Shown here piece by piece: positions 6,888-33,389 of a DNA stretch of 36,003 nucleotides. Every line of letters begins with the position of its first letter. Position 1 is the first letter of the stretch. Made by a program: the position numbers and the translations under genes. The notes below the pieces were generated by a model. The model was not told the origin of the DNA, ran no database searches, and worked only from the letters and a program-made list of their open reading frames with translations. Source of the stretch: Deltaproteobacteria bacterium (GTDB taxonomy: Bacteria > Desulfobacterota > Desulfuromonadia > Geobacterales > Pseudopelobacteraceae); contig JACMKN010000071.1 in assembly GCA_014380135.1 (NCBI GenBank), positions 1 to 36,003 of the forward strand, read 5' to 3'.

Positions 6888-7497
6888 TCACGTTATAAGC
6901 CGGGCCATTTCCACCACAAGCCCGCCGGTGGCACGGCACACTTTCACGGCAAAATCCAGATTCAGCGTCTCCAGCGTATCGCCGGGGCCGTGGTAGTGGG
7001 AACTGCGGAAGTTGGTCGTATCGGTTATCATGACAGCCTTGTAGCCATGGTCCCAAAAGGGGGCGTGATCCGAGCGCCGGCTGTCCGGTATTGTCTCCCC
7101 GTTGCCGGGTACCGCCAAGGCAAAATGGGGCAGGTCGATCCGGCATCTCTCAATCGCCCTGACAAATCCGCTAACCAGTTCAAGCGACTTTTCGTTTCCG
7201 ACTACCGCGATGAAGTTCGCCATTTCCGGAACCGGGACAGGTACACCCGCTGGAAATGATTGCGGTACGGAATCACTTGCGTAGGCGACCGATTCCAGCA
7301 CCAGGACACCCTCGATCTCCCAGTCTAGCTTGCGTACATGCCCGGCCAGGGCCCGACTGCCTCGCGTCCACGACTCAGGATCGCCCTCTATCTGGTTTTC
7401 CTCAAGGTTGACCCCGACCAGATGAATGGTCCGTTCAAATCGAAACTGCTGCAGGACCTCGGCCAGTTCCAGCAGCAGCGCCACACCACTGGCGTTG
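6888..7497 (-). pseudogene. M28 family metallopeptidase, 3' half (separated from its 5' half)
   Basis: NASGVALLLELAEVLQQF..IHLVGVNLEE..GVLVLESVAY..SDHAPFWDHGYKAVMITDTTNFRSSHYHGPGDTLETLNLDF; lacks the N-terminal half, which is found at 33376-33716. Confidence 0.88.
7484..7497. repeat. 14-bp direct repeat, left copy (CACCACTGGCGTTG)
   Basis: Identical to 33376-33389; located exactly at the break of the M28 gene. Confidence 0.85.
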
Positions 7498-7963
7498 CGG
7501 CTATTTATCGGATCCGCCCCCCCCTGCACCTGTACCCCCATTTCGATCCATCGCTACCGTTCCCGCATCTCCGGGCCACTCTTGGACCGCATCGACATCC
7601 ACATCGAAGTCCCGGCCGTCAAATACCGCGACCTGGCCGACCGTGGCGAGGCCGAGAGTTCCGCCGCAATTGCCAGGCGGATGGAGCAATCCCGCGAGCT
7701 GCAGCTGGAGCGCTACAAGGGCACCAAAATCCACTGCAACGCCCAGATGACGCCCCGCTTCATCAAGAAATACTGTGAACTGGATGTCAGCGGCAACCGC
7801 ATGCTGGAACTGGTCACTGATCGTTTGGGTTTCTCACCCGTACCTACACTCGCATTCTCAAGGTAGCCCGCACTATCGCTGATCTTGACGACAGCGTTAC
7901 CATCAATGAACAACATATCGCCGAGGCAATTCAGTATCGGAGTCTGGATAGGAAAACAAATTG
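7496..7963 (+). pseudogene. YifB/ComM-family Mg-chelatase-like AAA ATPase, C-terminal remnant
   Basis: CGYLSDP..(C8 run)..PCTCTPISIHRYRSRISGPLLDRIDIHIEVPAVKYRDLADR...ELVTDRLGF then, after a frame change near 7830-7840, [40 protein letters not shown]. Confidence 0.85.
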
Positions 7964-7994
7964 AATATAATTGGGGGGATGTCCCTAATTTCCC

Positions 7995-8162
7995 TTAATT
8001 CCATGAAGTCAACTGATAGGGCTCGGGCTTTCTCCATGGCTGCCACCAAACGACTGCTTCCGCGTTTTTCTCGACGCCCTCGCCTTTCACCTTGAGCCTG
8101 AGCCGGTAATTCATCCCTGCAACGACCTGTTGTTCTGCCCCTTCGTCGGATGTATTCCCGAA
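7995..8162 (-). pseudogene. cystatin-like domain protein, C-terminal remnant
   Basis: Minus-strand frame not in the ORF track: FGNTSDEGAEQQVVAGMNYRLRLKVKGEGVEKNAEAVVWWQPWRKPEPYQLTSWN*; QVVAG cystatin signature and PW motif; in-frame TGA immediately upstream. Confidence 0.6.
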
Positions 8163-8206
8163 TCACCTGCTCGTCTCATCCTACTGTCATTCGATTTCTT
8201 CATTGT

Positions 8207-9193
8207 TCAAACATTTGTACGCTCAGTTTTCGGGTCATGTGCATACGTCGGCAGCTTTGCTACGGTTCCACGCTTACCCTCTGTGACATTGTTGTAAGAC
8301 CGTGTCGTCCGATAGGCGAAATCTATATCATCACATTCGGCAAATCTGTTCAGCACGTCCTCCCATATCTCCTGAGTGCTCTCGCGCCTGTGGCGGGATG
8401 GACAGAGATGACGCACAGTCAGGAGTATCCCGTTTTCCTCGACGGTGGTGAAGACCTTCGGAGTCAGGTCGATCGGGACTATCAGAAAATCCCTTGCATA
8501 TTCCTTCAGTTTTCTCTCCGCGGGCTCGGCCAGATGCCCGGCATGTTTGACTGCTATCTCATTCAGGATATCCTTGGCTCTCTTCCAGTTGCTTTCGAAG
8601 GTAACGAGGACGGCAACCTCGTTCCAGATGAAGTCGTGCATCCCCCTGCTGTAGATTGCCAGGGGTTCGACGAACACTTTGCCGTTGGGGATATGCACGA
8701 TTCGCCCGGTGATCTGGTCCGCATGGACCCAGTTGCCGATCTCTGCGAGGGTAAACCGGAAAAGCGTCAGGTCCATAACATCCCCCGAGTGAATGCCGAT
8801 CTGGATGCGGTCCCCCACGGCGAAGGGCCTCCGCCAGAAAATCAACATCCATCCCACCAGGTTCACCAGCGGATCTTTCAAGGAAATAGCAAGACCCGCC
8901 GTCAAAAGCCCGAGAAAAGTGGCCACGCCGTGAAATCCCTCGAACAATCCCCGGCCCACCAGCAATGCGGTTAGCACGAATGCAGCATAACCGGAGATTT
9001 TCTGCCACTGGTAACGAACCTTCAAATTCTCCGTTTGCCGCCATACCAGCTTCAAAATCAGCCATCGCAAAGACCAGAGAAATGTAATGCCTGTCACATA
9101 GGTGAGCAACAGGCTGTAAAGTCCTACAGAAATACCGGTAGCTTTGCTAAGCCATACAACGAGATTTTGCAAATTTTCCTCAAAATTTTCCAT
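8207..9193 (-). CDS. MscS-family mechanosensitive ion channel
   Basis: FLGLLTAGLAISLKDPLVNLVGWMLIFWRRPFAVGDRIQIG..GDVMDLTLFRFTLAEIGNW..TGRIVHIPNGKVF. Confidence 0.9.
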   Translation of the reverse strand: MENFEENLQNLVVWLSKATGISVGLYSLLLTYVTGITFLWSLRWLILKLVWRQTENLKVRYQWQKISGYAAFVLTALLVGRGLFEGFHGVATFLGLLTAGLAISLKDPLVNLVGWMLIFWRRPFAVGDRIQIGIHSGDVMDLTLFRFTLAEIGNWVHADQITGRIVHIPNGKVFVEPLAIYSRGMHDFIWNEVAVLVTFESNWKRAKDILNEIAVKHAGHLAEPAERKLKEYARDFLIVPIDLTPKVFTTVEENGILLTVRHLCPSRHRRESTQEIWEDVLNRFAECDDIDFAYRTTRSYNNVTEGKRGTVAKLPTYAHDPKTERTNV

Positions 9194-9213
9194 GGTTCAT
9201 TCTTCCTCAACTG

Positions 9214-9330
9214 TCAAACATGATGAAGCCGCAACGAAATTCAACCTGTTTTGGCAGTTCTACCTTTACGCGAGGCGCCTCTTTATAGGGAATCCTGCTG
9301 AGAAGGTGAGTGTCCGACCGTTTCTTCATG
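9214..9330 (-). pseudogene. PPK2 polyphosphate kinase C-terminal remnant
   Basis: Minus-strand reading THLLSRIPYKEAPRVKVELPKQ...* matches ITHLLGRIPYKEAPRKKVKLPKR of the intact PPK2 at 20329-21282; the DNA is also alignable. Confidence 0.75.
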
Positions 9331-9350
9331 GCCGAACCTGACACTCCGAC

Positions 9351-9959: not shown

Positions 9960-11608
9960 GGTGTATCCTCCTGTTTGCCGCGTATCAGTGATTCGGGGTG
10001 ACGCTCAAGATAATCGGTCAGGACCCGCAACGACTGGGCGGTACGGGCCAGTTCCCGGAGTGTCTCCCGCAGGTCCTGCTGAAGCGGCGCATCGGCCGAC
10101 AGGGTCTGTTTCGCGGCGCTCAGCGTCTTGCGTCCCTCATCCAGGGTCTTGCGCGCCTCCTCCAGTGTCATCCCTATCTCGGGCAGTATATCCTTATCCA
10201 CCCTCCGGACCAACTTGGCAGCATCCTTGAGGGTGGCATCCAGGGTCTGCACCGTCTGGCGCACGTCGCCGGCAACCTCGTCCAGCGGCAGTTTCTCAAG
10301 TTTTTTGACGATCCGCATAAGTGTTTCCTGTAGTTCCACCAGGCTGCCGGGCGTAGTGGGGAACCGGGGTGGGCTCAAAGCCCAGTTTACATTCGCCTTC
10401 GGAGCATTGGGGAAGAAGTCGAGGGCGACGATAAGTTGTCCGGTCAGCAAATTGCCGCTCATGAGCTGCGCTCTCAGGCCGTGTGCAACCATCTCGTTGA
10501 GGATCGCACCATATTCATTAGGGTCCGGCACCGATCCAACAACTCGTGAACGGAGGCGTTCCGGGTAGATGCGCATTTCGACCAGCATGTTGACTTCCTT
10601 GCTGCGGGCGTCGTGTGCCACATGGATGCCGGAGACCTCGCCGACGGTCACCCCCCGGAAGTCAACGGTCGCGCCTGGCGACAAACCCCGCACCGATTCC
10701 TTGAAGATCATGGCAAAACCCTGGCTGATCGTGTCGCGATTTTTCATCGCCTCATCGCGGGTGGCGAACAGGGTAAAGGCTGTGTTGGCACTGATCGGCG
10801 GCGCCTCGCCGCTTTCGTCCAGGGTCTGGAAAGCTATTCCGCCGATGAGGATCGACATCAGCGACTGCGTGTCAAGCTTCAGGCCGCTGGCGTCCATGGT
10901 AAGGTCAACCCCGCTGGCGTTCCAGAAGCGTGTGTTCGCCCTGACATACTTGTCATACGGTGCGGCGACGAAGACCTTGAAGGTTACCCCCTTGCCGTCC
11001 TTGTCGAGTTCATAGGAGACCACCTGTCCCACCTGGATACGCCGGAAGTAGACCGGCGAACCGATATCCAGCGAACCGATATCCGCGCTGTGCAGCTGGA
11101 AGCGGCTCCCCGGCGCATCCATGGCGACGGCCGGCGCCACTTCCAGGCCGGTGAACTCCTGTTGCTGCTGCTTGGATGTCCCGACGTCGACCCCAATGTA
11201 GGAGCCGCCCATCAGCGTCCCGAGACCGGTTATACCACCCCCGGATATCCGGGGCCGTACCACCCAGAATTTGGTGTCCTCTACCAGGTAGGGCGTAACC
11301 TCCTTCTTAAGTTCAACGGTCGCAATTACGTGCGTGATGTCCCTGGCGATGGTGACTTCTTTGACCAGGCCGACCTCCACATCCTTGTACTTGACCTTGG
11401 TCTTTCCAGCCTCCAGCCCGTCGCCGGTCTTGAAGGTGATCGTGATGGTCGGCCCTTTTTGCAGATAGGTCCTGACCACCAGGATGCCACCGATGATGGC
11501 GGCCACGATCGGTATCAGCCAGACCAGCTGCAGGGAGAATCGCTTCCTGGGCTCCGGCACTGCCTCGGGGATGTCGTCCAGCCCGGGTTCTTGCTGCATT
11601 TCACTCAT
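9956..11608 (-). CDS. pqiB: PqiB, MCE-domain intermembrane transport protein
   Basis: VWLIPIVAAIIGGILVVRTYLQKGPTITITFKTGDGLEAGKTKVKYKDVEVG; repeated MCE domains; overlaps pqiC. Confidence 0.92.
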   Translation of the reverse strand: MSEMQQEPGLDDIPEAVPEPRKRFSLQLVWLIPIVAAIIGGILVVRTYLQKGPTITITFKTGDGLEAGKTKVKYKDVEVGLVKEVTIARDITHVIATVELKKEVTPYLVEDTKFWVVRPRISGGGITGLGTLMGGSYIGVDVGTSKQQQQEFTGLEVAPAVAMDAPGSRFQLHSADIGSLDIGSPVYFRRIQVGQVVSYELDKDGKGVTFKVFVAAPYDKYVRANTRFWNASGVDLTMDASGLKLDTQSLMSILIGGIAFQTLDESGEAPPISANTAFTLFATRDEAMKNRDTISQGFAMIFKESVRGLSPGATVDFRGVTVGEVSGIHVAHDARSKEVNMLVEMRIYPERLRSRVVGSVPDPNEYGAILNEMVAHGLRAQLMSGNLLTGQLIVALDFFPNAPKANVNWALSPPRFPTTPGSLVELQETLMRIVKKLEKLPLDEVAGDVRQTVQTLDATLKDAAKLVRRVDKDILPEIGMTLEEARKTLDEGRKTLSAAKQTLSADAPLQQDLRETLRELARTAQSLRVLTDYLERHPESLIRGKQEDTP

Positions 11609-11621
11609 GATAGTATCTCTC

Positions 11622-12242
11622 TTACTGTAGGGGGTCCCAAATCAGGCGAGGATCGAACTCCATGGCGGAGAACATGGTCAGCACCACTACTGCACCGAAG
11701 GCCAGCGCCCCGGGTCCGGCATTGATGGTCGCCAGGGCTCCGATCTGCACCAGTGCAGCCAGAATGGCAACCACGTAGATATCCAGCATCGACCAGCGGC
11801 CCACCAGTTCGACGACCCGGTAGAGCTTGGCCCTCTGCAGCGGTTGCCAGGTGGAACGGCGCTGGACGGAGAACAACAGCAGGGTCAGGGCGATCAGCTT
11901 GAGCAGCGGCACCATGATGCTGGCGATAAACACCACCAAGGCCAGGTCCCACGATCCTGAATGCCACAGGTACAGAATCCCGCTCATGATGGTGTCCGCC
12001 TGGGCGCCGAACAGGGAGCTGGTCTCCATGATCGGCAAGACATTGGCGGGGATATACAGGATGTAGGCGGCGATCAGGAAAGCCCAGGAACGTGCCACGC
12101 TGTCCGGCTTGCGAACATGAAGCGGCGTTGAGCAGCGTGGGCAGTGGAGAGTTTGGCCGCCATGACCTCCCCGGGAGAGCAGGCCGCAGACATGGCAGGA
12201 GAGCAGACCACGGGCGGCAGCGGTTACCAGCGTATCACTCAT
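11622..12242 (-). CDS. pqiA: PqiA half-protein 2 (paraquat-inducible protein A)
   Basis: N-terminal zinc ribbon CHVCGLLS..CPRCSTPLH plus 4 TM; SWAFLIAAYILYIPANVLPIM. Confidence 0.88.
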   Translation of the reverse strand: MSDTLVTAAARGLLSCHVCGLLSRGGHGGQTLHCPRCSTPLHVRKPDSVARSWAFLIAAYILYIPANVLPIMETSSLFGAQADTIMSGILYLWHSGSWDLALVVFIASIMVPLLKLIALTLLLFSVQRRSTWQPLQRAKLYRVVELVGRWSMLDIYVVAILAALVQIGALATINAGPGALAFGAVVVLTMFSAMEFDPRLIWDPLQ

Positions 12243-12868
12243 TGGGTGCCTCCCCGTCGGGGCGCAGAGTGCACCCGGTTCCAGATGTCATGGACATTGA
12301 ATAATGACGCCGTTGCAGTCATCAGCAGGGTGAGAGCACCCAGTGACCAGAGGGCGATGCCGGGGATCAGGGTCCCGTAGTGGGTGAGCTTTACCAGCGC
12401 CACGATCACTCCGATGATGAACACTTCCACCATCCCCCAGGGGTTGCAGATCCGCAGCAGACGCATGAAATGGGTAAAGCCGGCGGGAATGCGTCCGCGC
12501 TTCAGCGCCAGGAGGATATGGATCATAATCGCGAGAACCGCGGCAGGAACCAGAAACGTCGTGAAGAACACGAGTCCGGCAACCGGCCACATGCCCTGAT
12601 TCCACAGGGTATGAACAGCGCTGACGAGCGAGGTGTCGTTGCGCGTCGCCTGGATCTGGAGGCCGATGATGGGAAACATATTGGCGAGGATGAACACTAC
12701 TGCGGCTGCCAGTGTCAGGGCCAGCGTATGGTCGATGCTCCTGCTTTCGACGCGGTACAGCTTCGCACCGCACCGGACACAGCGGGCCACCCCGCCGGGC
12801 GGGAGCGGGATCTCACGCTGGAGCAGGTCACACTCGTGACAGGCTATGATGGACATCGGACTGTTCAT
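12239..12868 (-). CDS. pqiA: PqiA half-protein 1 (paraquat-inducible protein A)
   Basis: MSIIACHECDLLQREIPLPPGGVARCVRCGAKLY; ALTLAAAVVFILANMFPIIGLQ. Confidence 0.88.
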   Translation of the reverse strand: MNSPMSIIACHECDLLQREIPLPPGGVARCVRCGAKLYRVESRSIDHTLALTLAAAVVFILANMFPIIGLQIQATRNDTSLVSAVHTLWNQGMWPVAGLVFFTTFLVPAAVLAIMIHILLALKRGRIPAGFTHFMRLLRICNPWGMVEVFIIGVIVALVKLTHYGTLIPGIALWSLGALTLLMTATASLFNVHDIWNRVHSAPRRGGTQ

Positions 12869-12890
12869 GAATTCACCTACAGTACCTTAG
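12832..12890. repeat. imperfect direct repeat (pqiA leader and first codons), copy 1
   Basis: Minus: AAGGTACTGTAGGTGAATTCATGAACAGTCCGATGTCCATCATAGCCTGTCACGAGTG; see 13133-13176. Confidence 0.75.
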
Positions 12891-13060
12891 CGATAAGCAT
12901 GCCAACCAGTTGAAACGTATTATTTAAGGTAGTTACACAGCAAGCGCTTACAGGTCTGTGATATTTCATTATTATGCACTGCTAAATATCAAGGAACGTT
13001 GGTATTATGCGAAATATCGTGAATAATGACGGGAGGTCTAAAAACAAATGGGGACAAAAA
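12888..13060. repeat. dispersed promoter-region repeat, copy A (homologous to 31033-31204)
   Basis: First 52 bp align without gaps, then TATCAAG..GGTA..ATGC.AAATATCGTG.ATA.TGACGGGAGGT.TAAAAACA.ATGGGGA. Confidence 0.8.
12889..12904 (-). promoter_or_regulatory. candidate sigma54 -24/-12 promoter for pqiA operon
   Basis: Minus strand TGGCATGCTTATCGCT: GG-N10-GC spacing; same element at 31034-31049. Confidence 0.65.
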
Positions 13061-13089
13061 CGGCAGGCAGAATGATTTCAGAAGCGTAG
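13048..13089 (+). pseudogene. vestigial start of a sigma54-dependent regulator paralogue
   Basis: GGGAGG RBS then MGTKTAGRMISEA*, cf. MGIKMEGRGTAS at 31192; nothing else of the gene remains downstream. Confidence 0.55.
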
Positions 13090-15390
13090 AGCATGGTTCG
13101 ATAAACCTACATTCTTTCCTTCTACTCTTTCCACTCGTGACAGGCTATGACGGTCATCGGACTCACCTACAGTATCTTCCGCGGCTGGCCGGTGGAGGCG
13201 ATCACGCTGTTCCACAGCCACCCGTCGGGGTCGATCTTCTTCCGCTCGGAGGTCGCAAGGGAGATCGGCACATGGACGAACTGGTGGTTCCAGAAACCGA
13301 CCAGCATGTTGGTCCGCCCCGTCCTCATCACTGGTCAGCAGTGCTGCCAGCGAGTATGGCGGCAATTCATAGGTCGTACCCTCGAACGATTGCGCCTCGT
13401 CCCACGACACGATATCATCGGGTGATGGGTAAGAAGTATCGAGCCACCGGCGCCAGCCGTCGCCGGGAAGTCCCGGCGGTGGCGGCAGTTCGAAGGTAAG
13501 TTGTTCAGAGTAAGCGTTTATCACGAAATGGAATACAATCCCTCCTGACCGGCTCCAGGCAGTAAAGGCAATACTGTGGGAATCATGCCCCCAGTCGGGC
13601 TGCCCGAGTCGCACTCCATGCCATTCCAGGCGCGCCTGGCGAAGGATCTGGTTGAGGGTCAAATCGGCATATTTCCACGAGGTATGCCACATCAGCCTGG
13701 CAGTAATGAGGAGACGTACAAAGCGGTGGATATCGGCGTGGCGTTCAACCAGTTTCCAGTCGAACCAGCTTGTCTCATTATCCTGGCAATAGGCGTTGTT
13801 GTTCCCCCCTTGGGTGCGGCGTACCTCGTCACCCATATGCAGCATCGGCGCACCGACGGCTATGAGGGTTAAGGCCAGGAAGTTTTTTACCTGCCGGTTG
13901 CGGAGCGCTTCGATTGCCGTATCACCGGTGGGTCCCTCGACGCCGCAGTTCCAGCTCAGGTTCGTGTCGGCGCCGTCCCGGTTCTCTTCGCCGTTGGCCT
14001 TATTGTGCTTGCGCTCGTAGGAAACCAGGTCGTTCAGGGTAAATCCATCGTGGCAGGTGACGAAATTGATGCTCTGCTCGGGCTCCCGCTCCTTGTGACC
14101 ATAGATGTCCGGGCTCCCCAGGAGCCGGGAGACGAACCGGGAAACCGTCCCGCTGCCTCCTCTGAGAAAGCCGCGAACATCGTCACGGAAGCTGCCGTTC
14201 CATTCCTTCCAGGATTCGCCGATGAAAGAACCTACCTGATACAGACCGGCTGCATCCCACGCCTCGGCGATGAGTTTTATCCCCGCCAGTGCCGGATCCG
14301 ATTCAATGTCCCAAAGAACCGGCGGGGTCTCAAGGGGGCGCCCCCGTTCATCACGGGAGAGAATGGCTGCCAGGTCGAAACGGAAGCCGTCCACATGCAT
14401 CTCATCCACCCAGTAGCGCAGGCTGTCTAAAATGAGACGCCGGACAATGGAATTATTCGCGTTAAGGGTATTGCCGCACCCTGAATAGTTGGCATAGGCT
14501 CCGCCTGGCTCGATAATGTAATAGACATCATCCGCCAGTCCCCGGTAACAGAAGGTCGGACCGGTCTGGTCCCCCTCGGCGGTATGGTTGAAAACCACAT
14601 CGAGGATCACTTCGATCCCTGCCCGGTGGAACTCCTTCACCATGTCGCGGAACTCGTCGAGGGGGCCGAGCGGATCCTGGCGCGAACTGTAGCCGGCATG
14701 GGGAGCGAAGAACGACACCGGGCTGTATCCCCAGTAATTGACAAGTCCAGGCCGCGCATCATGAGGATCGAAGTGAAACACCGGCATGAGTTCCACGGCA
14801 GTCACCCCCAAATCCCGCAGGTAGGGGATTTTCTCGATCAGTCCCGCATAGGTGCCTCGTTTTTCGGCGGAGACTCCCGAGGAGGGATGGCGGGTGAAGC
14901 CGGCAACGTGCAGCTCATAGATCACTGTCCTGTCGAAGGGGTGTCGCGGCGGGGTGTCCCCATCCCAGTCGTAACCGCGGTGGTCGGTTACCACACTCTT
15001 CATGGCGGTGGCAGTAGTGTCTCCGAAATCAGCTGTCCGGCGGCCGTAACCGGCAGGGGTGACGACGGCCCGGCCATAGGGGTCGAGCAGGACGGGCCTG
15101 GGTGCTTCAGCGCTCACGGTGCGGTAGGCATAGAGCTGGCCGGCTCCGAGGCCCGGGACAAAGGTATGCCAGTAATGGTAGGTCCGGTTCCAGTGCGAGT
15201 CGAGAAGAATGACCCGTGCCGGCCGCGGATCATCGGCCCGGATGAACAGGAGCAGCTCCACGCCGGCACAATTCCTGGCATAGACGCTGAAATTCACCCC
15301 GCCGTGGCTGAGCGTCGCCCCCAGGGGAAAGCTCTTCCCCTGGGGCAAATTGCGCGCATCCTCATAGGCAATATCCTGACAGTTCATCAT
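13078..15390 (-). CDS. glgX: glycogen debranching enzyme GlgX (the last ~85 aa are out-of-frame PFK/pqiA debris)
   Basis: HGGVNFSVYARNCAGVELLLF..VFNHTAEGDQTGPT..DGFRFDLAAILSRDERG..NFVTCHDGFTLNDLVSYERKHNKANGEENRDG..GDEVRRTQGGNNNAYCQDNE. Confidence 0.92.
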   Translation of the reverse strand: MMNCQDIAYEDARNLPQGKSFPLGATLSHGGVNFSVYARNCAGVELLLFIRADDPRPARVILLDSHWNRTYHYWHTFVPGLGAGQLYAYRTVSAEAPRPVLLDPYGRAVVTPAGYGRRTADFGDTTATAMKSVVTDHRGYDWDGDTPPRHPFDRTVIYELHVAGFTRHPSSGVSAEKRGTYAGLIEKIPYLRDLGVTAVELMPVFHFDPHDARPGLVNYWGYSPVSFFAPHAGYSSRQDPLGPLDEFRDMVKEFHRAGIEVILDVVFNHTAEGDQTGPTFCYRGLADDVYYIIEPGGAYANYSGCGNTLNANNSIVRRLILDSLRYWVDEMHVDGFRFDLAAILSRDERGRPLETPPVLWDIESDPALAGIKLIAEAWDAAGLYQVGSFIGESWKEWNGSFRDDVRGFLRGGSGTVSRFVSRLLGSPDIYGHKEREPEQSINFVTCHDGFTLNDLVSYERKHNKANGEENRDGADTNLSWNCGVEGPTGDTAIEALRNRQVKNFLALTLIAVGAPMLHMGDEVRRTQGGNNNAYCQDNETSWFDWKLVERHADIHRFVRLLITARLMWHTSWKYADLTLNQILRQARLEWHGVRLGQPDWGHDSHSIAFTAWSRSGGIVFHFVINAYSEQLTFELPPPPGLPGDGWRRWLDTSYPSPDDIVSWDEAQSFEGTTYELPPYSLAALLTSDEDGADQHAGRFLEPPVRPCADLPCDLRAEEDRPRRVAVEQRDRLHRPAAEDTVGESDDRHSLSRVERVEGKNVGLSNHALRF
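13133..13176. repeat. imperfect direct repeat, copy 2 (truncated pqiA 5' end)
   Basis: Minus: AAGATACTGTAGGTGAGTCCGATGACCGTCATAGCCTGTCACGAGTGG = ...MTVIACHEW, then diverges. Confidence 0.7.
13167..13335 (-). pseudogene. 6-phosphofructokinase C-terminal remnant fused to the end of glgX
   Basis: Frame offset from glgX: PVMRTGRTNMLVGFWNHQFVHVPISLATSERKKIDPDGWLWNSVIASTGQPRKIL*; typical ATP-PFK C-terminus. Confidence 0.7.
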
Positions 15391-15460
15391 TTTTGCATTC
15401 TCATATGACTAACCTTTCATTCCAGCCCGGCAGCGCCCGTAGTGTCCCGCGAGCTGCCGG

Positions 15461-15736
15461 TCAGCGTGTCGTTTCGATCTTACGGTTCTCCCCGGACGAT
15501 ACAGGCTTTGCTGCCCCCCCGGGCTGAACGGACTGTTCCATCTGAAAGGGAAGACGTTCCCGTTCGTTGGCCAGTTTCGGGGCCTCCTTAATTACCTGCC
15601 AGTTTTTGCCGACCGGCATAACCAGAGGGTTAGAGGGCACCACGGAAGCCTGACCAACTCGCTTGGCGTCAAAAATGGTGCATGAGCAGAGAAGTAAAAG
15701 GCCGGCAGACAGGGTTAGCGGATGAATAAATTTCAT
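15461..15736 (-). CDS. small lipoprotein (91 aa)
   Basis: MKFIHPLTLSAGLLLLCSCTIFDAKR with lipobox; ATG at 15736. Confidence 0.65.
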   Translation of the reverse strand: MKFIHPLTLSAGLLLLCSCTIFDAKRVGQASVVPSNPLVMPVGKNWQVIKEAPKLANERERLPFQMEQSVQPGGAAKPVSSGENRKIETTR

Positions 15737-15761
15737 GACAGGTGTCCTTGAATTAGTTCGG

Positions 15762-18263
15762 TTACACAGGTTGCGCCTTCCAGATTTTCTCACAATACTC
15801 CCGGATTGACCGGTCGGAAGAAAACTTCCCCATCCGGGCGACGTTCAGGATCGACATCTCGGCCCAGTTCTTTCTGTTTCCATATGCCGCACTCACCCGA
15901 TCCTGGCACTCGATGTAGGACTGGTAGTCAGCCAGGAGCAGATACTCGTCGCGGTTAAGAAGGTTGTCCACCAGGGGACGAAACAGGTCCCAGTCGCCGT
16001 TGGAAAATGTTCCTGACGCGATCTGATCGATGGCCTCCTGGAGTTGGGAGTTCCCTTCGTACCAGCTTCGAGGGTTATAGCTGCGGGACTTGATGTCAGC
16101 AGCCTCGGCGGCATTGAGTCCGAAGAGGAAGAAATTTTCCTCGCCGACTTCCTCACGTATCTCGATGTTGGCGCCGTCGAGCGTACCGATAGTAAGGGCG
16201 CCGTTGAAGGAGAGTTTCATGTTGCCGGTACCGGAAGCCTCTTTTCCGGCCACGGATATCTGCTCGGAGAGATCGGCCGCCGGGTAGATCAACTGACCGT
16301 TGGTCACGTTGAAATCAGGAAAGAAGACCACCTTCAGACGTCCAGCAACATCGGTGTCGTTATTGACCACCTCGGCCACGGAGTTGATAAGCTTGATGAT
16401 CAGTTTCGCCATGTAGTAACCGGGCGCTGCCTTGCCGCCAAAGATGAAGGTCCGGGGGGTGATGTCGGCCCGCGGGTCATGCTTGATCCGATTGTAGAGG
16501 GTGATGATGTGGAGCACGTTCAGATGTTGGCGCTTGTATTCGTGGATACGCTTCACCTGAACGTCGAACAGGCTCGCGGGATCCACCTCGATACCGGTTC
16601 GCTCCCGGATGACCCCGGCCAGAGCCTCTTTGTTCGCCTGCTTCACCTTCAGCCATTTCCGCTGGAAGGCAGAGTTCGTGGCAAGGGGCTGGAGCCCGCT
16701 GAGTTCCGTCTCAAGATTGCTGAGCCAGTCATCGCCCAGCTTGGAAGAGATCAGCTCCGTCAGCCCCGGATTGCTGAGCGCGACCCACCGGCGGGGGGTG
16801 ACGCCGTTGGTGACGTTGTGAAATTTATCCGGGAACAGTTCGTGAAAGTCATGCAGCACAGTCTTTTTCAGAAGCTCCGTGTGCAGGGCGGCAACCCCGT
16901 TGACGGCATGGCTGCCCACGCAGGCCAGGTTGGCCATGCGCACGTACTTGTCACCGGTCTCATCGATCAGCGACAGCCGTGCGATCCGCGCATCATCGCC
17001 GGGAAAATGTGACCATGCCTTGTCCAGAAACCGCCGGTTTATCTCGTAGATGATTTCGATAATGCGGGGCAGGACTGAGGAAAAAAGCGTCAGGGGCCAC
17101 TTTTCCAGCGCTTCCGACAGCAGCGTGTGGTTGGTGTAGGCAAAGCACTTATTGGTTATCCCCCAGGCTTCGTCCCATTCCAGCTTATGCTCGTCCACCA
17201 GCAGCCGCATCAGCTCGGCGATCCCTATGGAAGGATGAGTATCGTTGATCTGGATGGCAAAGGTTTCGGAGAGATCCTTGATCGCTCTACCATAGGAGAG
17301 GTGGAAAAAGATCATGTCCTGCAGCGAACAGGAAACAAAGAAATATTGCTGGCAAAGGCGAAGACGTTTTCCGACTTCCGTCTCATCGTTTGGATAAAGG
17401 ACCTTGCTGAGCGTCTCGGAAAGCACCTTGTCGTCCACGGCCCTGTTATACTCTCCGGCATTGAAGGCCTGAAAATCGAACGACGCTACCGCCTCTGATT
17501 TCCAGAGCCGGAGCACCGAGACTCCTCCGGAACGATAGCCGGCAATAGGAGTATCGTAAGCCACACCCATGATGACTTTGACAGGAATCCAGCGAACCGA
17601 CAGCCGCCCGTCAGAATCACGAACAGGCTCCGTATGACCGCCGAATTTGACTTCGAAGGCGAGATCCGGCCGACGTACTTCCCATGGATTACCGAACTTG
17701 AGCCAATTGTCGGCTTTTTCGATTTGCCATCCATTGCGGATCTCCTAGTCGAAGATGCCGAATTCGTAGCGGATTCCGTAGCCTACGGCGGGAACCCTCA
17801 GTGTTGCCAGAGACTCCAGATAACAGGCGGCAAGACGGCCAAGACCGCCATTTCCCAGTCCCGGCTCAACCTCTTGCTTGAGTATATCCTCCAGATTCTG
17901 TCCCAACGTTTCCAGCGCCGCGCGAACTTGAGCTTCAAGTTCCATGTTTACCAGATTGTTCCCCAAATGCGGCCCGAGAAGGAACTCCGAGGACATGTAG
18001 CTGACAACTTTAAGCTTTTCTTTAGCCAAAGAGATCAGGTCATAGAACGACGTAAGCCAGTTCTTAACGACTTGATCGCGAACGGCGTGAGCCACTGCCA
18101 TATACCAGTCGTTACGTGTCGCAAAGTGTAGCGGTTTTGCCTGAGTACAGTGGAGGTGATTAAGAATGGCCTGTTGTATCTCGTCAGAACTCTGACTGGT
18201 CCGCATTGTGTCGTGATTGTTGCTGCCGTGTTTTGTTGCTCGTGCCATAACTTTCCTCCTCAA
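15762..18263 (-). pseudogene. glgP: glycogen phosphorylase with a single in-frame amber codon at 17745-17747
   Basis: N-part ...[39 protein letters not shown], then same frame [70 protein letters not shown]...; both parts full length; likely start 18248. Confidence 0.9.
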
Positions 18264-18290
18264 TGTCTGTTTTTAACCACACGTTGCCCC

Positions 18291-20325: not shown

Positions 20326-20328
20326 GAT

Positions 20329-21323: not shown

Positions 21324-22121
21324 CTAAACATTTATTACATCGATAAGCTGCAGCCTCTGAAGGAAGCGGGCAAAATCGCGAAGTGTCATCAAGTCCTTTT
21401 CGGGTATTCCGTCCGGGTCAAAATGCATGACGTCATTTCTGATTTTCCTTACACTCTCAAACTTCCCCATACAGGTTTTACGATCAACGGTAATGTTCAG
21501 CTTGTCCCATCTTTCCTGGTTTTCAAGCAACCTTATGTACTCTCCGTAAGTAAGATCTGCAACGGAGGTGACTACGCGTTTAGTATCTGACGGGTCTTTT
21601 GCAGACTCCAATTCTGCAGGGGAAAACCGTTGGCTGATAACTCGTCGCACGTGGTTTTCTATTTCTCCAAGCAACAGGAACGGCTCTGCCAGTTGTTGAA
21701 ACTGCAGGCTCAGATCACTTGCCGTGACGATGCCGGTAATCTTCTGGTCATGGCCACGAACCAGCACATACTGATGTTCCGCAATTATGCCGATTGCTGA
21801 AAAAAACGGTGCATCAGAACGAATCTCCAGGTGTTGTTCCATTAACTCACGAGCTACTGAACAATTCTTACCCACAGCCAGACGGCTGCCGATAGATGCC
21901 CACGTAATCACACCTTTGACGTCTCTTCCGCTTGTCATCACCGGCAACTGGGAAAAGTCATTTGTGAGCATATGAGTAACGGCTTCTTCCAGTTTAGTGT
22001 CAGGGGACACGGAAAGAGGTTTACGGGCTGAAGAAGCAAGTCTGCTGATGCGATAGATCGGGTCGGCATATGCTGAAGATGGCCCCTTTTCTTCTCCCTT
22101 TTCACTTTTCATGCACACCAC
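21324..22121 (-). CDS. CBS-domain protein
   Basis: LSVSPDTKLEEAVTHMLTNDFSQLPVMTSGRDVKGVITWASIGSRL and second copy ending GHDQKITGIVTASDLSLQF. Confidence 0.85.
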   Translation of the reverse strand: MVCMKSEKGEEKGPSSAYADPIYRISRLASSARKPLSVSPDTKLEEAVTHMLTNDFSQLPVMTSGRDVKGVITWASIGSRLAVGKNCSVARELMEQHLEIRSDAPFFSAIGIIAEHQYVLVRGHDQKITGIVTASDLSLQFQQLAEPFLLLGEIENHVRRVISQRFSPAELESAKDPSDTKRVVTSVADLTYGEYIRLLENQERWDKLNITVDRKTCMGKFESVRKIRNDVMHFDPDGIPEKDLMTLRDFARFLQRLQLIDVINV

Positions 22122-24259: not shown

Positions 24260-24318
24260 AGGTAATCCCTTTCTCTCAACCCACCATTTTCCGAGATCCC
24301 CCGGCAAGAGCCCGGTTG

Positions 24319-24720: not shown

Positions 24721-24753
24721 CCTGCATATTGTTTTGCTGTCCCGCTGATATCC

Positions 24754-27700
24754 TTACCTGCTTGACGCGAGCGCCCCAGTGATCCGGTCGAGCTCGGTCC
24801 GGGCCAGACGGTATTGCAGCGATGCCTGCAACTCATCCATTTCCGCCTTTCTCAGTGCCGCAACTGTTTCGGCATGCTTTGCCGTCGTGACAGTCCCGGC
24901 TATTAGCCCGTTTTCGCTGAGCCGCGTATTCTCCTTCGATAAGGAAAGCGCCTCACGTGCGACATCGACCATCTGTTTCGAGCGTTCCAGCTTCCGGTAC
25001 GCCTTGTCTAGGTCGATCCCGATCCGCTTGTCTATCCGTGCCAGGTTCTCTTCCGCCTGTGACCGTTGGGCGACTCGCTGGCCGATATCTCCCTTACGTT
25101 TCCCCCAGTCGAAGATGTTCCAGGTCAGCTCGGCCCCGAAGATGCCGATGTTATTCTCGACAAACGGCGCTCCGTCCTGATAGCCGTGCTTGGCAAAGAT
25201 AGTTACGTCAGGAATGTATTCATAGCGCGCGGCACGCACAGCGTGGTGTGATTTTTCCAGCGTTTCGCGAGCGGCAAGCAATTCGCCGTTTCTGGCCCGC
25301 GCCTCATCATAGGACTGGTCTTTCGCCAGTTCCGTCAACTCCGACAACCCGGCCTCGGTTACATCAATGATAGCGTCGCTCGGTAGACCCAATAGGTCGT
25401 TGAGTTCCGAAGTCACGTCCGAGATGCGGTTCTCCGCGACGAGAAGCGCCTGCCTGCCCTGGAGCAGATTGGCCTTGGCCGAGATTAGGGCAACATCGAG
25501 CAGATTCCCCGCCTTTACCGCCTCCTCGGACTCGCGCAGGCTCTCCTGTGCAGCTGTCAGCGAAGCCTGGGCGGCATCCCTTTCCTTGTGCGCAATCAGC
25601 AAGGCGTAATAGAGCTGATGTACTGCCAGGACCGTCTCGTTTGTCGACCTGTTTAGTTCTGCATCCGCAATGCCGCGATCGGCCCGTGCTATCTGATTGG
25701 CCTCATGAATCTTGAGCAGCTGCGTAATCGGCTGAGCGAGGGTCGTTTCGCTGTACAGGACGTCGGTGCGGCTCTGGCTTAACTTCACATCGTTGTTGGG
25801 AAAAGGCCCGCCGCCGACATTTCCCAGACTGCCGGCCGGTATGGTGACATGCTGTTTGTCGGACAAGGCCGTATACTTGGTGTTGTTGGAAAGGAGCGGA
25901 AAGTACTGTGACCGTGCCGAGACGATCTTCTGATCGTTCTCCGTCACCTTCGCCCGACCGATCTTGAGCACCGAGTTCTGCTGCAGAGCCAGTTCGACCG
26001 CCTGCGACAGGGTCAGTGAGTGATTTACCGGCTCTGCCGAGGCATCCTTTCCCGCAGCGAGAAGAACCAATGCCATGATCGCAACGGTGACGGCAGCCAC
26101 CGGCTTGCCGGCCCCCTTCCTGGCGGAACGGGACTTGACGGCCACGTAGATGACGGGAACGACCAGGAGCGTAAAGAACATCGAGAAGATGAGGCCGAAG
26201 GCGATGACGCTCGCCAGCGGGCTCCAGAGGCTCGACCCGGAGATGATCATCGGTGTCACCCCCACCGCGGCGGCCATGGTGGTAAGGAAGATCGGGCGCA
26301 GACGCCGCGACCCGGCCTCCCGTGCGGCCTGTTCCAGGGTCGCCCCTTCGGCGACCCGTTCGTTGCAGTAGTCCACCAGGATAATCCCGTTTCTCACCAC
26401 GATGCCGCACAGGCTGATCAGCCCCATGAAGGCGGTGAAACCGAAGGGGTTGTGGGTTATGATGAGCCCGAAGATCGCCCCGAACAGGGTGAGCGGGATG
26501 GAGGCCATCACCACCAGCGGGTCGGATATGTTCCTGAACTGCACCAGCAGCACCAGGAAGATCGCCACCAGGCTGATCCCAAGAGCGACGAGCATCTGCG
26601 GGAAGGTCTCGTCCTGGTTAAATTTCTCGCCGCCGTAGTCGATCCGGTAGCCCGCCGGGAGTTGCAGGGCCTTGATCTTCGGCATGGCCTCCTCCAGTAT
26701 TTTAGAAGCGTAGTGCCCCGGCTTCGCAAAGGCACGGATGGTCAGGGTGCGTACGCCGTTTCTGCGGACGATCCTGCTGGTCTGCCACTCGGGTGCGAGC
26801 TGGGCAACGGCGCGGAGCGGAACCCTGGCACGGGTCAGTTCCGAGTTGAGATAGGTATTTCCGATATCCGCGAAATTCGAGCGGGAGGCCTGGTCCAGCC
26901 GCAGTTTGATGCTGACCGGGCGGTCCCCTTCCCAGAAGGTGCTGACCGCGGCGCCGTCGAATGCCCCTGAGAGGGTTTGCGATACCGACGCGTCGGTTAT
27001 GCCGAGACGGTTGGCCAGTTCGTCGTTCACTTTCACGTCCACCCGGTACGAATCGTTGAAGTAGTCGCGGAACACGTAGTCGGCAAACGGTACGCCCTCC
27101 AGAATTCCCTGCACCTGTTCCCCCAGCCGCTTCAATTCGCCGATGTCGTCACCGGAGATGCGCACCTCGATCGGCGCCTCCGTCTGGGCTCCCTGCTGGA
27201 CCTCCTTCACGATCACCATCGCCTCCGGCGCCACTTTTGCCAGCACCGGGCGCAGTTCCTTCACCAGCCGTGTAGTATCCTTCACCGAGGCGGTGTTGAC
27301 GATGAACTGGCCGTAGGCGCCATCGGGCTGCTGGGGATTGACGTTGTAGTAGAATCTCGGGGAGCTCTGACCGATGAAGGTGGCATAGTGAGCGACACCT
27401 TTGCTGGCTCCCAGGGTTTTTTCGATCCGCCCCATGACCGCATCGGTGGCCTCGATCCGCGTTCCCTGGGGCATCCAGACATCAATCACGAACTGGTCGC
27501 GCTCGGCGGAGGGGAAGAACTGCTGCGGCACCAGCGCGAAGAGCGCCACCCCGAAGGCGAAGGCACAGCCCCCGAGGGAGAAGGCGAGCCACTTTCTGTT
27601 CATGAAGATGTTGATCCAGACCCCGTACTTGTCCTGGAGCCGGTCCAGCAGACTCTTCTTCTCCTTGCCGTGGGTCTCTACGGCATCATGGTCGTGCAGC

Positions 27701-29181
27701 CCCTTCTTGATGAAGAATCTGCAGAGCAGGGGGGTCAGCATGACAGCCACGATAAATGAAACCGCCAAGGCGATCGCTACGGCGATGGGAAGCGCCATGA
27801 TGAATTCGCCGGAAGAGCCGGTGATGATCAGAAGCGGCAGGAAGGAGGCGATGATGGTAACGGTCGCCGTGAGGACCGGGACGAAGACGTCGCTGGCACA
27901 CCGCCAGGCCGCCTCGGCCTTCGGCACCTTGTGATCAAGGAGTTCCACGTAGTTGTCGGCGATCACGATGGCGTCGTCCACCACGATCCCCAGGACCATG
28001 ATGAGCGCTGCGATGGAGACCTGGTGCAGCGCTATCCCCACCGCGTTCATGACGGCGAGGGTGCCGCACAGGGTCACCGGTATGGCCAGGGCGGCGATGA
28101 GAGCGACCCGCAGCGGTAGGAGTACGATGGTGACGATAACCACGGAAATGATGGCCAGCAGGAATTCGTGGGAGAGCGTGGCAATCCGCTCCTTGACGAC
28201 CCCCGGCTGGTCGGCGACCAGGTCCAGCTGCACGTCAGGGGGGAGGAGCACCTTGAGGCGCTGGAAGACCTTGTCCAGCTGTTCGCCCAGTTCGACAATG
28301 TTCTTCCCCTTCTGCATCTCTACGGAGAGGAGCAGGCAGGGGTCGCCGTCAAAGCGCACCATGAAGGTCGGGTCCTGATACCTGCGCTCTACCTTGGCGA
28401 AGTCCCTGATGTAGGCCGGGTGGCCATCCTTGGAAACGTCCACGAGTACGTTCCGGATCTCGTTTTCGGTATTGAAAATCCCGGTGGTCCTCACGGGGAC
28501 CTTCGAGCGGTCGGCGTCGAAATTCCCGCCGCTCTGGATGACGTTCCGCTGTCTCAGGGCATTCGCTATCTGGCTCGGGTCGGCGAAATACTGCGCCATC
28601 CGTTCAAGGCTGCTGGTGACCCAGATCTCTTCGGACTGCGTCCCATAGGTCACGAGCTTCCCCGCTTCGCGGACCGTGCGCATCTCGTCGTGGATCTTGT
28701 CCGCAAAGTCCTGCAGCTCACGATACCCGTACTGTTTGCCGCGGATGGCGACCAGCATGGCGACGGTATCGCCGAAATCGGAATCCACCACCGGCCCCAT
28801 GATACCAGCGGGGAGTTCGGTGCTCTTCACCACATTCAACTCGTGGCGCAGTTTCGCCCAGAACTGGTCGGAATTTTTGACGTTGTCTTCCAGTTCCACG
28901 TTAATGATGACCACGCCGGGACGGCTCGTGGAATATGTCTTTTCCTTGCGCACCTCGGGAAACTTGAAGATGTGCTTCTCAAGGGTCTTCGTTACCTGTT
29001 TTTCCACCTGCTCGGAGGTCGCTCCGGGGTACATCGCGGCCACCAGCCCGGTCCTGATGGTGACGGTCGGATCTTCAGTCCGTTGCATTTTCAGAAAGGC
29101 ATGAATGCCGATCATGACGACCATTGCCGTCAATATGAGGGTCACGGCGGGGTAGCGAAGCGAAAACTTTATCGGTTTCAT
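24754..29181 (-). CDS. RND efflux permease fused in frame to a TolC-family outer-membrane factor (1475 aa)
   Basis: RND part MKPIKFSLRYPAVTLILTAMVVM...IALHQVSIAALIMVLGIVVDDAIVIADNYVE...RPIFLTTMAAAVGVTPMI; then KGAGKPVAAVTVAIMALVLLAAGKDASAEP; then TolC part LTLSQAVELALQQNSVLKIG...LTWNIFDWGKRKGDIGQ. Confidence 0.92.
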   Translation of the reverse strand: MKPIKFSLRYPAVTLILTAMVVMIGIHAFLKMQRTEDPTVTIRTGLVAAMYPGATSEQVEKQVTKTLEKHIFKFPEVRKEKTYSTSRPGVVIINVELEDNVKNSDQFWAKLRHELNVVKSTELPAGIMGPVVDSDFGDTVAMLVAIRGKQYGYRELQDFADKIHDEMRTVREAGKLVTYGTQSEEIWVTSSLERMAQYFADPSQIANALRQRNVIQSGGNFDADRSKVPVRTTGIFNTENEIRNVLVDVSKDGHPAYIRDFAKVERRYQDPTFMVRFDGDPCLLLSVEMQKGKNIVELGEQLDKVFQRLKVLLPPDVQLDLVADQPGVVKERIATLSHEFLLAIISVVIVTIVLLPLRVALIAALAIPVTLCGTLAVMNAVGIALHQVSIAALIMVLGIVVDDAIVIADNYVELLDHKVPKAEAAWRCASDVFVPVLTATVTIIASFLPLLIITGSSGEFIMALPIAVAIALAVSFIVAVMLTPLLCRFFIKKGLHDHDAVETHGKEKKSLLDRLQDKYGVWINIFMNRKWLAFSLGGCAFAFGVALFALVPQQFFPSAERDQFVIDVWMPQGTRIEATDAVMGRIEKTLGASKGVAHYATFIGQSSPRFYYNVNPQQPDGAYGQFIVNTASVKDTTRLVKELRPVLAKVAPEAMVIVKEVQQGAQTEAPIEVRISGDDIGELKRLGEQVQGILEGVPFADYVFRDYFNDSYRVDVKVNDELANRLGITDASVSQTLSGAFDGAAVSTFWEGDRPVSIKLRLDQASRSNFADIGNTYLNSELTRARVPLRAVAQLAPEWQTSRIVRRNGVRTLTIRAFAKPGHYASKILEEAMPKIKALQLPAGYRIDYGGEKFNQDETFPQMLVALGISLVAIFLVLLVQFRNISDPLVVMASIPLTLFGAIFGLIITHNPFGFTAFMGLISLCGIVVRNGIILVDYCNERVAEGATLEQAAREAGSRRLRPIFLTTMAAAVGVTPMIISGSSLWSPLASVIAFGLIFSMFFTLLVVPVIYVAVKSRSARKGAGKPVAAVTVAIMALVLLAAGKDASAEPVNHSLTLSQAVELALQQNSVLKIGRAKVTENDQKIVSARSQYFPLLSNNTKYTALSDKQHVTIPAGSLGNVGGGPFPNNDVKLSQSRTDVLYSETTLAQPITQLLKIHEANQIARADRGIADAELNRSTNETVLAVHQLYYALLIAHKERDAAQASLTAAQESLRESEEAVKAGNLLDVALISAKANLLQGRQALLVAENRISDVTSELNDLLGLPSDAIIDVTEAGLSELTELAKDQSYDEARARNGELLAARETLEKSHHAVRAARYEYIPDVTIFAKHGYQDGAPFVENNIGIFGAELTWNIFDWGKRKGDIGQRVAQRSQAEENLARIDKRIGIDLDKAYRKLERSKQMVDVAREALSLSKENTRLSENGLIAGTVTTAKHAETVAALRKAEMDELQASLQYRLARTELDRITGALASSR

Positions 29182-29207
29182 ATAATTTATCCTCTCGTGG
29201 CCGCCGG

Positions 29208-30359: not shown

Positions 30360-30368
30360 TATTCCCTC

Positions 30369-30998: not shown

Positions 30999-31033
30999 GA
31001 TGTTCTCCTTTGTATTGACACTGTCTTTGTAAT

Positions 31034-31049
31034 AGCGATAAGCGTGCCA
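31034..31049 (-). promoter_or_regulatory. candidate sigma54 -24/-12 promoter for the azoreductase/RND operon
   Basis: Minus strand TGGCACGCTTATCGCT: TGGCAC, GG-N10-GC, near-consensus. Confidence 0.75.
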
Positions 31050-31054
31050 GCCTC

Positions 31055-31073
31055 TTGAAATACGTAATTTCAA
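31055..31073. promoter_or_regulatory. inverted repeat TTGAAAT-ACGTA-ATTTCAA
   Basis: Perfect 7-bp arms just upstream of the sigma54 promoter; degenerate in copy A. Confidence 0.45.
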
Positions 31074-31095
31074 ATAGTTACATAACCACCTCCTG

Positions 31096-31110
31096 CATAT
31101 CAACGATATG
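31096..31110. promoter_or_regulatory. candidate activator site 1: CATATC-AAC-GATATG
   Basis: Perfect 6-bp inverted repeat, core ATATC-N3-GATAT shared with site 2. Confidence 0.5.
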
Positions 31111-31156
31111 CCATGTTTTTTATTGCGATATATCAAGTAAAATGGGTACAATGCTA

Positions 31157-31171
31157 AATATCGTGGATATT
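31157..31171. promoter_or_regulatory. candidate activator site 2: AATATC-GTG-GATATT
   Basis: Perfect 6-bp inverted repeat; centre 61 bp from site 1. Confidence 0.5.
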
Positions 31172-31191
31172 GACGGGAGGTATAAAAACAC

Positions 31192-32787
31192 ATGGGGATT
31201 AAAATGGAAGGGAGAGGCACAGCCAGCTTGGGAAGCGACAAGGGTATGGCCGGCCGCGACGAATTTATCAGGGAGATAACCCTCAGAATCTGCGGCAGTC
31301 TGGAAATAAAAGAATCGTTGCGCAATGCCTTCGAGTATCTGAAGGAGCAAGTCCCCCTCGAAGCTTTAATCCTCTTCATCATAGATGAGCGACTGGGGGC
31401 AATTCGGCGCATTGAACATGCCTCTGAAAATGTCGCTCTTCCGCCCCAAATTATCCCGCTGCCGGAAGGGATGCTGCGGAAGATTGCCGCCCGGAATTTT
31501 TCCGCGCCGTTCGTAGTGGATACGGGAGGTGACGAAATCTTCCGCACCTTTGCGCCGCTGGTGGGGCTAGATGGGAATACGGACCTGATCGTTCCTTTGC
31601 GAATCAAGGGGGAGCTGCTTGGCGGGTTGAACTTGCGTGCGCGGGGAGAGGGACGATACTGCGAAGAACATCTTGAACTCGCTGGCTATCTTGCGGAGCC
31701 GTTTGCGATTGCCCTTGCCAACGCCCTCGCCCACGAGGAGGTGCTCCGCTACCAGGCCATCCTGTTGGACGACAAGCGCTTCCTGAACCGGGAGTTGCAC
31801 GGTGACGCCGCAGACGGGATCATCGGCGGCAATACGGGGCTGCGCAATGTGATGGAGATGGTTCGCCAGGTGGCGCCGCTCAACAACACAGTGCTCATCC
31901 TCGGCGAGACCGGGACCGGCAAGGAGTTGATCGCCAATGCGATTCACTTTTCTTCGCCGCGCAAAAATGGACCTTTCATCACGGTGAATTGCGGCGCGTT
32001 GCAGGAAAACCTGATCGACAGCGAGCTATTCGGTCATGAGAGAGGGGCTTTTACCGGGGCGGTGGCCGAGAGCCGGGGACGCTTCGAGCGGGCCGACGGC
32101 GGCACCATCTTCCTGGATGAAATTGGTGAGCTCCCGCCGAACGCGCAGGTACGGCTTCTGCGGGTGCTGCAAAACCGCGAAGTGGAGAGAGTGGGAGGGA
32201 AACGCCCGATCCCGGTAGACATACGGGTGATCGCGGCAACGCACCGCAACCTGCAAAGCATGGTGGCGGAAGGGAGCTTCCGCGAGGATCTCTGGTACCG
32301 TTTGAGCGGCTTTCCCATCATGGTACCGCCGGTGCGGCAGAGGAAGGAGGATGTGCCGGCCCTTACCCGTCACTTCGTGACGGTCAGGAGCAGGGACTTT
32401 GGCATCGGGGTGCCCCCGTCAATCGCGCCGGGGGCACTGCAGCGGCTCATGGGATACGACTGGCCCGGCAACGTCCGGGAACTGGAGAACCTGGTCGAGC
32501 GTGAGCTCATCCTGCATCGTGGCGGTCCGTTGACCTTCGGTACGATTCTGCCGGGCCCGGAACAAAAGAACTTGCCGCCCGTCGCCGGCAACAGCAGGTC
32601 GCTCTACCCACTCAACCTGGATGAGGCAAACGCAGTGCATATCACCGAGGTCCTTAAACTGGCCAAGGGGAAGATCGATGGCCCCGGAGGTGCGGCTGAG
32701 ATGTTGGGGATCAATCCGAGCACACTGCGTTCGCGTCTGGACAAGCTCGGCATCAGCTATCGCCGCAGGGCTCGGGAAAGCAACTGA
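31192..32787 (+). CDS. sigma54-dependent transcriptional activator (GAF-AAA+-Fis HTH)
   Basis: GETGTGKELIANAIHF, GAFTGAV, GGTIFLDEIGELPPNAQVRLLRVLQ, DWPGNVRELENLVER; C-terminal AAEMLGINPSTLRSRLDKLGI; N-terminal GAF-like region. Confidence 0.95.
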   Translation: MGIKMEGRGTASLGSDKGMAGRDEFIREITLRICGSLEIKESLRNAFEYLKEQVPLEALILFIIDERLGAIRRIEHASENVALPPQIIPLPEGMLRKIAARNFSAPFVVDTGGDEIFRTFAPLVGLDGNTDLIVPLRIKGELLGGLNLRARGEGRYCEEHLELAGYLAEPFAIALANALAHEEVLRYQAILLDDKRFLNRELHGDAADGIIGGNTGLRNVMEMVRQVAPLNNTVLILGETGTGKELIANAIHFSSPRKNGPFITVNCGALQENLIDSELFGHERGAFTGAVAESRGRFERADGGTIFLDEIGELPPNAQVRLLRVLQNREVERVGGKRPIPVDIRVIAATHRNLQSMVAEGSFREDLWYRLSGFPIMVPPVRQRKEDVPALTRHFVTVRSRDFGIGVPPSIAPGALQRLMGYDWPGNVRELENLVERELILHRGGPLTFGTILPGPEQKNLPPVAGNSRSLYPLNLDEANAVHITEVLKLAKGKIDGPGGAAEMLGINPSTLRSRLDKLGISYRRRARESN

Positions 32788-32906
32788 TAAGAAACGACGG
32801 ATATAATACTTGCCAAATCAGGAAGTTCAAGGTTCGAGTCCGTGATGGTCGCTGCCTCGTTCTCAGGCTAATATCGCCTTTCGCGCTCAGGTCCGTAGGG
32901 TGCCGC

Positions 32907-33245
32907 TCAGAAAAAGAACATTTCCTGACGTTCCAGAAACAGTTCGATCTTATTCCGGTTCTTTTTTAACGGGTAATGACGACCACTTAACCAGTCAGAC
33001 AGTTGTTCAGGGCCTCTCCCCATGGCTTCGCCAAGACAATCCAGATTCATTCCCATAGTTCTCTTAAACCAACCAAGTCGCCCCACTGTGTCATCCGGAC
33101 AGTCGAACGTAATATAACTTAGAAATTTGATAATACTTTGATTATATTGAAGTTCCGGTTCGGTGCCATGTTCCCAGTTCCAGACAGAGGGTTCGGTAAC
33201 GCCGATGATCTCGGCTACTTTTCTCTGGAGGAGGTCGAGATCCAT
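32907..33245 (-). CDS. XRE-family helix-turn-helix regulator, 5' end possibly damaged
   Basis: LLQRKVAEIIGVTEPSVWNWEHGTEPELQYNQSIIKFLSYITFDCPDD; homologous-looking sequence (KQQLPGYPEFPITVGEHIRKKR) continues upstream of the ATG without a standard start codon. Confidence 0.7.
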   Translation of the reverse strand: MDLDLLQRKVAEIIGVTEPSVWNWEHGTEPELQYNQSIIKFLSYITFDCPDDTVGRLGWFKRTMGMNLDCLGEAMGRGPEQLSDWLSGRHYPLKKNRNKIELFLERQEMFFF

Positions 33246-33375
33246 TCGTTTCTTGCGGATATGTTCACCGACTGTGATGGGGAATTCGGGATAACCGGGA
33301 AGCTGCTGTTTTTAGAGAGGAATATGAATTGAGAACGAGTGCCGTCTTGTATAAGAATTGTAGAGAAAGGTTAAC

Positions 33376-33389
33376 CACCACTGGCGTTG
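33376..33389. repeat. 14-bp direct repeat, right copy (CACCACTGGCGTTG)
   Basis: Identical to 7484-7497; at the other M28 break. Confidence 0.85.

Follow-up and report, generated by a model that had tools for sequence, protein, structure and literature searches.

How did some 25.9 kb of DNA with no recognizable integrase come to lie inside a single peptidase gene? The window (the whole stretch of DNA analysed here, 36,003 nucleotides) belongs to a fragmented MAG of an uncultured Geobacter-like bacterium (336 contigs, 79% complete), and the comparisons below also rest mostly on MAGs. A first-pass annotation had read the locus as an island inserted into one M28 gene, and had listed site-specific recombination, microhomology integration and long target duplication as possible ways of entry.

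The interrupted M28 gene

That one gene was split by an insertion is borne out by relatives, in which the two pieces align as one stretch to single intact genes. Joined over one copy of the repeat, they match the uninterrupted gene of G022 (contig C3) over 877 bp at 83.7% identity, and those of G057 and G055 at 68.6% and 65.7%. Both halves align to the same G022 gene. Across the insertion site G022 reads GCGCCACACCACTGGCATTATCGTCGG, uninterrupted; its synteny with the window goes on upstream, where 33376-34529 matches the same stretch, and a contig of G021 (C431) also appears contiguous at the site. The in-frame join proposed across one repeat copy stands as an alignment to a single gene, but the N-terminal half loses its frame before the break is reached, through a +1 shift relative to G022 in an A8 tract (33444-33451). 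Given this shift and a neighbouring ParA gene that also appears broken, the M28 copy is either a decayed pseudogene or carries a homopolymer error.

The 14-bp direct repeat is exact, as reported (Table 1). It has no third place in the window, even with up to two mismatches, and its 12-bp core occurs at two places in the whole genome assembly, both at the island borders. Only its inner 8 bp, ACTGGCGT, differ from the core that the inserted module would itself have carried; these are certainly derived from M28, hence 8 bp were duplicated, while the outer CACC and TG could originate from either partner. No tRNA or known RNA gene was found as a target at the site. Since relatives are intact here and the cargo is foreign to the genus, the insertion of a foreign block of about 25.9 kb into one M28 gene is supported, whereas none of the three listed mechanisms is established.

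Table 1. Features of the island and of the M28 gene that surrounds it (window coordinates).
Feature	Position	Strand	Basis
M28 peptidase, C-terminal part	6888-7497	-	Pfam PF04389, E=2.7e-13; 85% identity to intact G022 gene
Left repeat copy, CACCACTGGCGTTG	7484-7497	+	Exact match
Left module end: comM/yifB 3' third, from about nt 1062 to stop, frameshifted	7498-7964	+	PF13335, PF01078
Cargo	8207-32787		Pfam; 82-90% identity to blocks at comM in G041
HTH tail, relic with one stop	32907-33374	-	Homologue of ORF starting at att core in relatives
Right module end: attachment half-site R, ending in GTAGAGAAAGGTTAAC	33328-33375	+	Conserved at R|comM3' junctions in relatives
Right repeat copy, CACCACTGGCGTTG	33376-33389	+	Exact match
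M28 peptidase, N-terminal part, +1 frameshift	33376-33716	-	81% identity to same G022 gene; joined alignment and frames

Ends and cargo of the island

The first-pass annotation had recognized no integrase inside the block, and this is literally true: no recombinase or conjugation family was found by Pfam among the main ORFs of 7.5-33.4 kb, and a recombinase motif scan of the window was negative. What that statement missed is the nature of the two ends: on one side a 3' fragment of comM, on the other an attachment half-site that adjoins a severed HTH tail. On the strength of these we take the island to be a module, itself non-autonomous, from a family of serine-recombinase elements that target comM. 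The comM (yifB) gene belongs to the Mg-chelatase family, and the fragment, coded on the + strand with a frame change inside, is 84% identical to the full comM that the same genome carries on contig C234. At the other end, half-site R lacks its terminal ACAC, and the HTH tail is homologous to an ORF that in relatives is in phase with a serine recombinase across attP.

On C234 the complete comM is followed downstream by an R joined directly to a comM 3' fragment, the junction to be expected of a closed module. R and the comM 3' fragment, the island's own two ends, are thus found joined on C234 and in relatives, and no closed copy of the island itself was seen. No copy of the recombinase that relatives carry at comM (see below) was found in this genome, 79% complete, at E<=1e-60, a point against an origin from such an element. 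An MqsR/MqsA-like toxin-antitoxin pair and a degraded TOTE-like gene, both recognized by eye, separate the intact comM of this genome from the R|comM3' junction (L010, 1134-1864, - strand).

The cargo comprises genes for an MS channel, MlaD/PqiA/ABC auxiliary proteins, isoamylase, glycogen phosphorylase, a TetR regulator and PPK2, followed by a CBS protein, MlaA, an RND efflux system with OEP and HlyD, a flavodoxin-fold protein and a sigma-54 activator. For the most part it shows 82-93% identity to clusters from other families of the order. Most of the window at 8.2-9.2 and 21.3-32.8 kb matches, at 82-93% identity, blocks at comM in G041, a member of a different family whose comM itself is only 74% identical. 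None of the 38 other members of the genus that were searched has the RND part, which is present in 28 genomes of other genera in the order; in G041 it lies at comM, and in most of the 28 there is no comM in the stretches read around it. The CBS-domain protein (21324-22121, - strand) scores 339 bits against the NCBIfam model of the DS11 anti-phage protein, above its cut-off of 260, so that the island carries a candidate defence gene.

Other details of the cargo may be recorded here. A 149-bp block downstream of the MS channel gene (7997-8145) is 90-93% identical in two other families of the order and has no Rfam match. The intergenic stretch before pqiA (12888-13105) resembles the one that precedes the sigma-54 activator in relatives, and the two may possibly represent a shared sigma-54 promoter/enhancer region. 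The RND pump and the outer-membrane efflux protein form one fused ORF of 1475 aa (24754-29181, - strand), and glycogen phosphorylase (15762-18263, - strand) is read as two ORFs, probably through a frameshift.

The comM hotspot and a proposed split integrase

In many relatives comM is itself split, its 5' part running to nt 1055 and its 3' part starting from nt 1051 with CCCTG common to both; the element sits at codon 351-352, has CCCTG as its core and carries an inverted-repeat attP. In at least ten relatives, 5' fragments ending at nt 1055 adjoin the inverted counterpart of R, GAGATGTGTGAACCTTTCTCTAC (here L), and where the contig continues past L it encodes a large serine recombinase of about 506 aa (PF00239 and PF07508), whose nearest NCBIfam families, XisF, CcrB and CcrC, are all matched below cut-off. 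All copies of this recombinase at 85% identity or more whose junction could be read lie in comM. Beside it are genes for a CI/S24 repressor, a TrfA-type initiator, TraE and TraK; with the recombinase, TraE and TraK in place, the element is a probable integrative conjugative element. Its attL reads comM5'-CCCTG-L and its attR R-CCCTG-comM3', and in G016 the two halves of comM lie 141 kb apart on one contig. Relatives also carry integrase-free modules in arrays, each made up of a comM 3' end, cargo, HTH and half-site, and every tandem module finishes with R.

Within the genus, R ends occur mostly at one locus per genome. Among 37 distinct sequences found after R, comM beginning at one and the same nucleotide accounts for 24, some of them of clearly divergent comM types; another conserved sequence follows R in ten, one is a different sequence, one is a chance match in Lacticaseibacillus, and M28 appears once, in the window alone. 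Apart from the chance match, the named carriers are Desulfuromonadales, Geobacteraceae or unspecified Deltaproteobacteria, and the isolates Geomobilimonas luticola and Trichlorobacter thiogenes are among them. G003 and G032 have 35 kb in common at 99.8% identity up to R and then continue into different comM 3' ends, an argument for site-specific recombination, and against copying by homologous exchange, as the origin of the junction.

Three other mechanisms were considered at comM and set aside. No tyrosine recombinase lies near the R-end arrays, the recurrent one near comM being a XerC-like host gene; an integron attC site, suggested by GTTAAC-like motifs, is ruled out by the crossover at CCCTG; and the CCCTG overlap had pointed to Tn7-like transposition and a 5-bp duplication, a reading dropped in view of the serine recombinase at the L end. 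The R end had no match in viral contigs or plasmids; no viral contig contained the recombinase, and plasmids gave only distant recombinases, below 60% identity. A literature search for a serine-integrase element in comM found none among the papers covered.

Further variants occur around these junctions. In L058 (at 9385 and 15633), L106 and L116, R is followed by a left end of another type, CCCTGRATTTGC...AATAACAGGCTGTTACACTCCGACGGAGTGTTAAGC, which has a hairpin. In L041 a 6.8-kb duplication (1056-7845 and 10706-17495, 99.9% identical) begins exactly at comM nt 1051, its copies flanking a 2.9-kb passenger that ends in R. L168 and L169 hold divergent serine recombinases (42-47% identical) whose ORFs end in seemingly antisense comM, suggesting a wider comM-targeting family.

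The recombinase frame offers a reading of the HTH tail. In the integrated state the ORF runs out across the junction and stops soon after in antisense comM. When L and R of G016, which lie on the same contig, are joined as attP, the recombinase frame runs on, still in phase, into the HTH ORF that follows R. Of 29 distinct copies of this ORF, 24 stay open from the core to the end of codon 135; pN/pS is 0.17 in its own frame against about 1.9 in the other two forward frames, and the only in-frame start common to the copies upstream of the HTH is a GTG (TTG in one) within the attachment site. We infer a recombinase-HTH fusion across attP; integration would therefore sever the enzyme's C-terminal domain, leaving the HTH at the far end of the element. 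No circular form with the fused frame was found among viral contigs and plasmids. On balance we lean towards a comM integrase that is complete only in the excised circle and loses its HTH upon integration, the modules, including the one in M28, keeping the severed tail.

Entry into M28 and comparison with known systems

Comparison with the arrays of relatives shows the island, at the level of sequence, to be an integrase-free passenger such as builds up at comM, consisting of a comM 3' end, cargo, an HTH tail and an R half-site. Its history would begin with an autonomous element bearing the large serine recombinase, which inserts at comM nt 1051-1055 and creates attL and attR. If the element excised along with adjacent DNA, from attL to an R lying farther off, it would carry away a comM 3' end and cargo enclosed by R on both sides, and loss of the autonomous element would leave a passenger beside an intact comM, as on C234. 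The module, as a circle or as a template, would then have entered M28 where the sequence is similar to the module's R|comM3' core; in the process 8-14 bp of M28 would have been duplicated and the core lost. Between the M28 site, ACACCACTGGCGTTG, and the module core, ACACCCCTGYCCCTG, 11 of 15 positions agree, and 2.7e-4 of positions reach that level of match.

Both junctions carry the M28 version, with M28-type bases for about 6 bp in each direction. From a serine integrase one would expect the crossover dinucleotide and parental arms only, so that these bases at both junctions and the lost ACAC count against a clean serine-integrase crossover. Most probably, the joining step was an integrase reaction that aborted and was then repaired, or a switch of template driven by microhomology. 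Taken as a whole, we consider it likely that a comM passenger joined M28 at a core-like site otherwise than by a clean crossover.

The strongest competitor, itself unlikely, is a clean integration of a composite at a pseudo-attB in M28 by the serine integrase, followed by excision of the autonomous part, the extra bases being chance variants. It yields exactly the observed order, M28C|comM3'-cargo-R|M28N, and both sites have the TG dinucleotide and the CNCTG core. However, it predicts CACTG-YCCCTG-CGG at the left junction, where we find CACTG-GCGTTG-CGG, and a right junction ending in ACACACCCCTG, and it requires several substitutions that coincidentally match M28. An assembly chimera is highly improbable: the MAG is fragmented and incomplete, and R ends and comM repeats do fall at contig ends in relatives, but two independent false joins would recreate neither an exact 14-bp duplication nor an M28 gene that aligns without loss to intact genes. 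Least credible of all is transposition by some transposase with an 8-14 bp target duplication and no tie to comM elements, which would explain the exact duplication at both ends, but the two ends (CGGCTA.. and ..GTTAAC) form no inverted repeat, a transposase family is missing from the main ORFs, and each end falls on the att core that characterizes the comM family.

If the island is a comM passenger that joined M28, such modules are able to leave their usual site, M28 being an unusual second address. comM, the gene of the natural-transformation helicase, emerges as a hotspot for a family of serine-integrase elements in Geobacter relatives. The passenger modules of this family bring metabolic, efflux and candidate defence genes from one bacterial family to another, and an intact comM can persist beside them.

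Staphylococcal SCC elements, mobilized by CcrA/B/C, also form tandem arrays and have integrase-free members. CcrB and CcrC are among the nearest families to the comM recombinase, below curated cut-off (108.8 bits for CcrB in relatives, cut-off 900; none in the window), which by this measure places the element outside SCC; unlike SCC, the comM element uses a different target gene and a single recombinase. The AbaR/Tn7-like islands of Acinetobacter likewise interrupt comM in its Mg-chelatase domain (PMC11472951), but through Tn7-like transposition, in contrast to the serine recombinase and comM-sparing passenger modules described here.

The accretion logic is that of CIMEs and ICEs as reviewed (PMC5704250). 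Like a CIME, the island lacks integration and transfer genes, and modules of its kind are att-bounded DNA in tandem with an ICE of the same specificity, with which they may move; no such ICE was found in this genome. A CIME retains attL and attR, whereas the left boundary here is the 3' end of the target gene (half an attB) and R lacks its terminal ACAC; moreover, the window copy sits in M28, outside the target gene and away from comM nt 1051-1055, where the element of relatives inserts.

The closest parallel in the recombinase frame is found in the ssrA islands of Dehalococcoides, which have a CcrB-like serine recombinase, DsiB, at attL, occur in tandem and in many cases lack integration genes (PMC3146451). 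They differ in their target, ssrA instead of comM, and the comM element carries conjugation genes. The 3' end of DsiB overlaps attL with its stop outside the island, and full function only on the circle has been suggested (PMC3146451). In the comM element the missing 3' part of the frame can be named, an HTH domain, and this in-frame tail provides a concrete test of the circle-only integrase proposed for DsiB.
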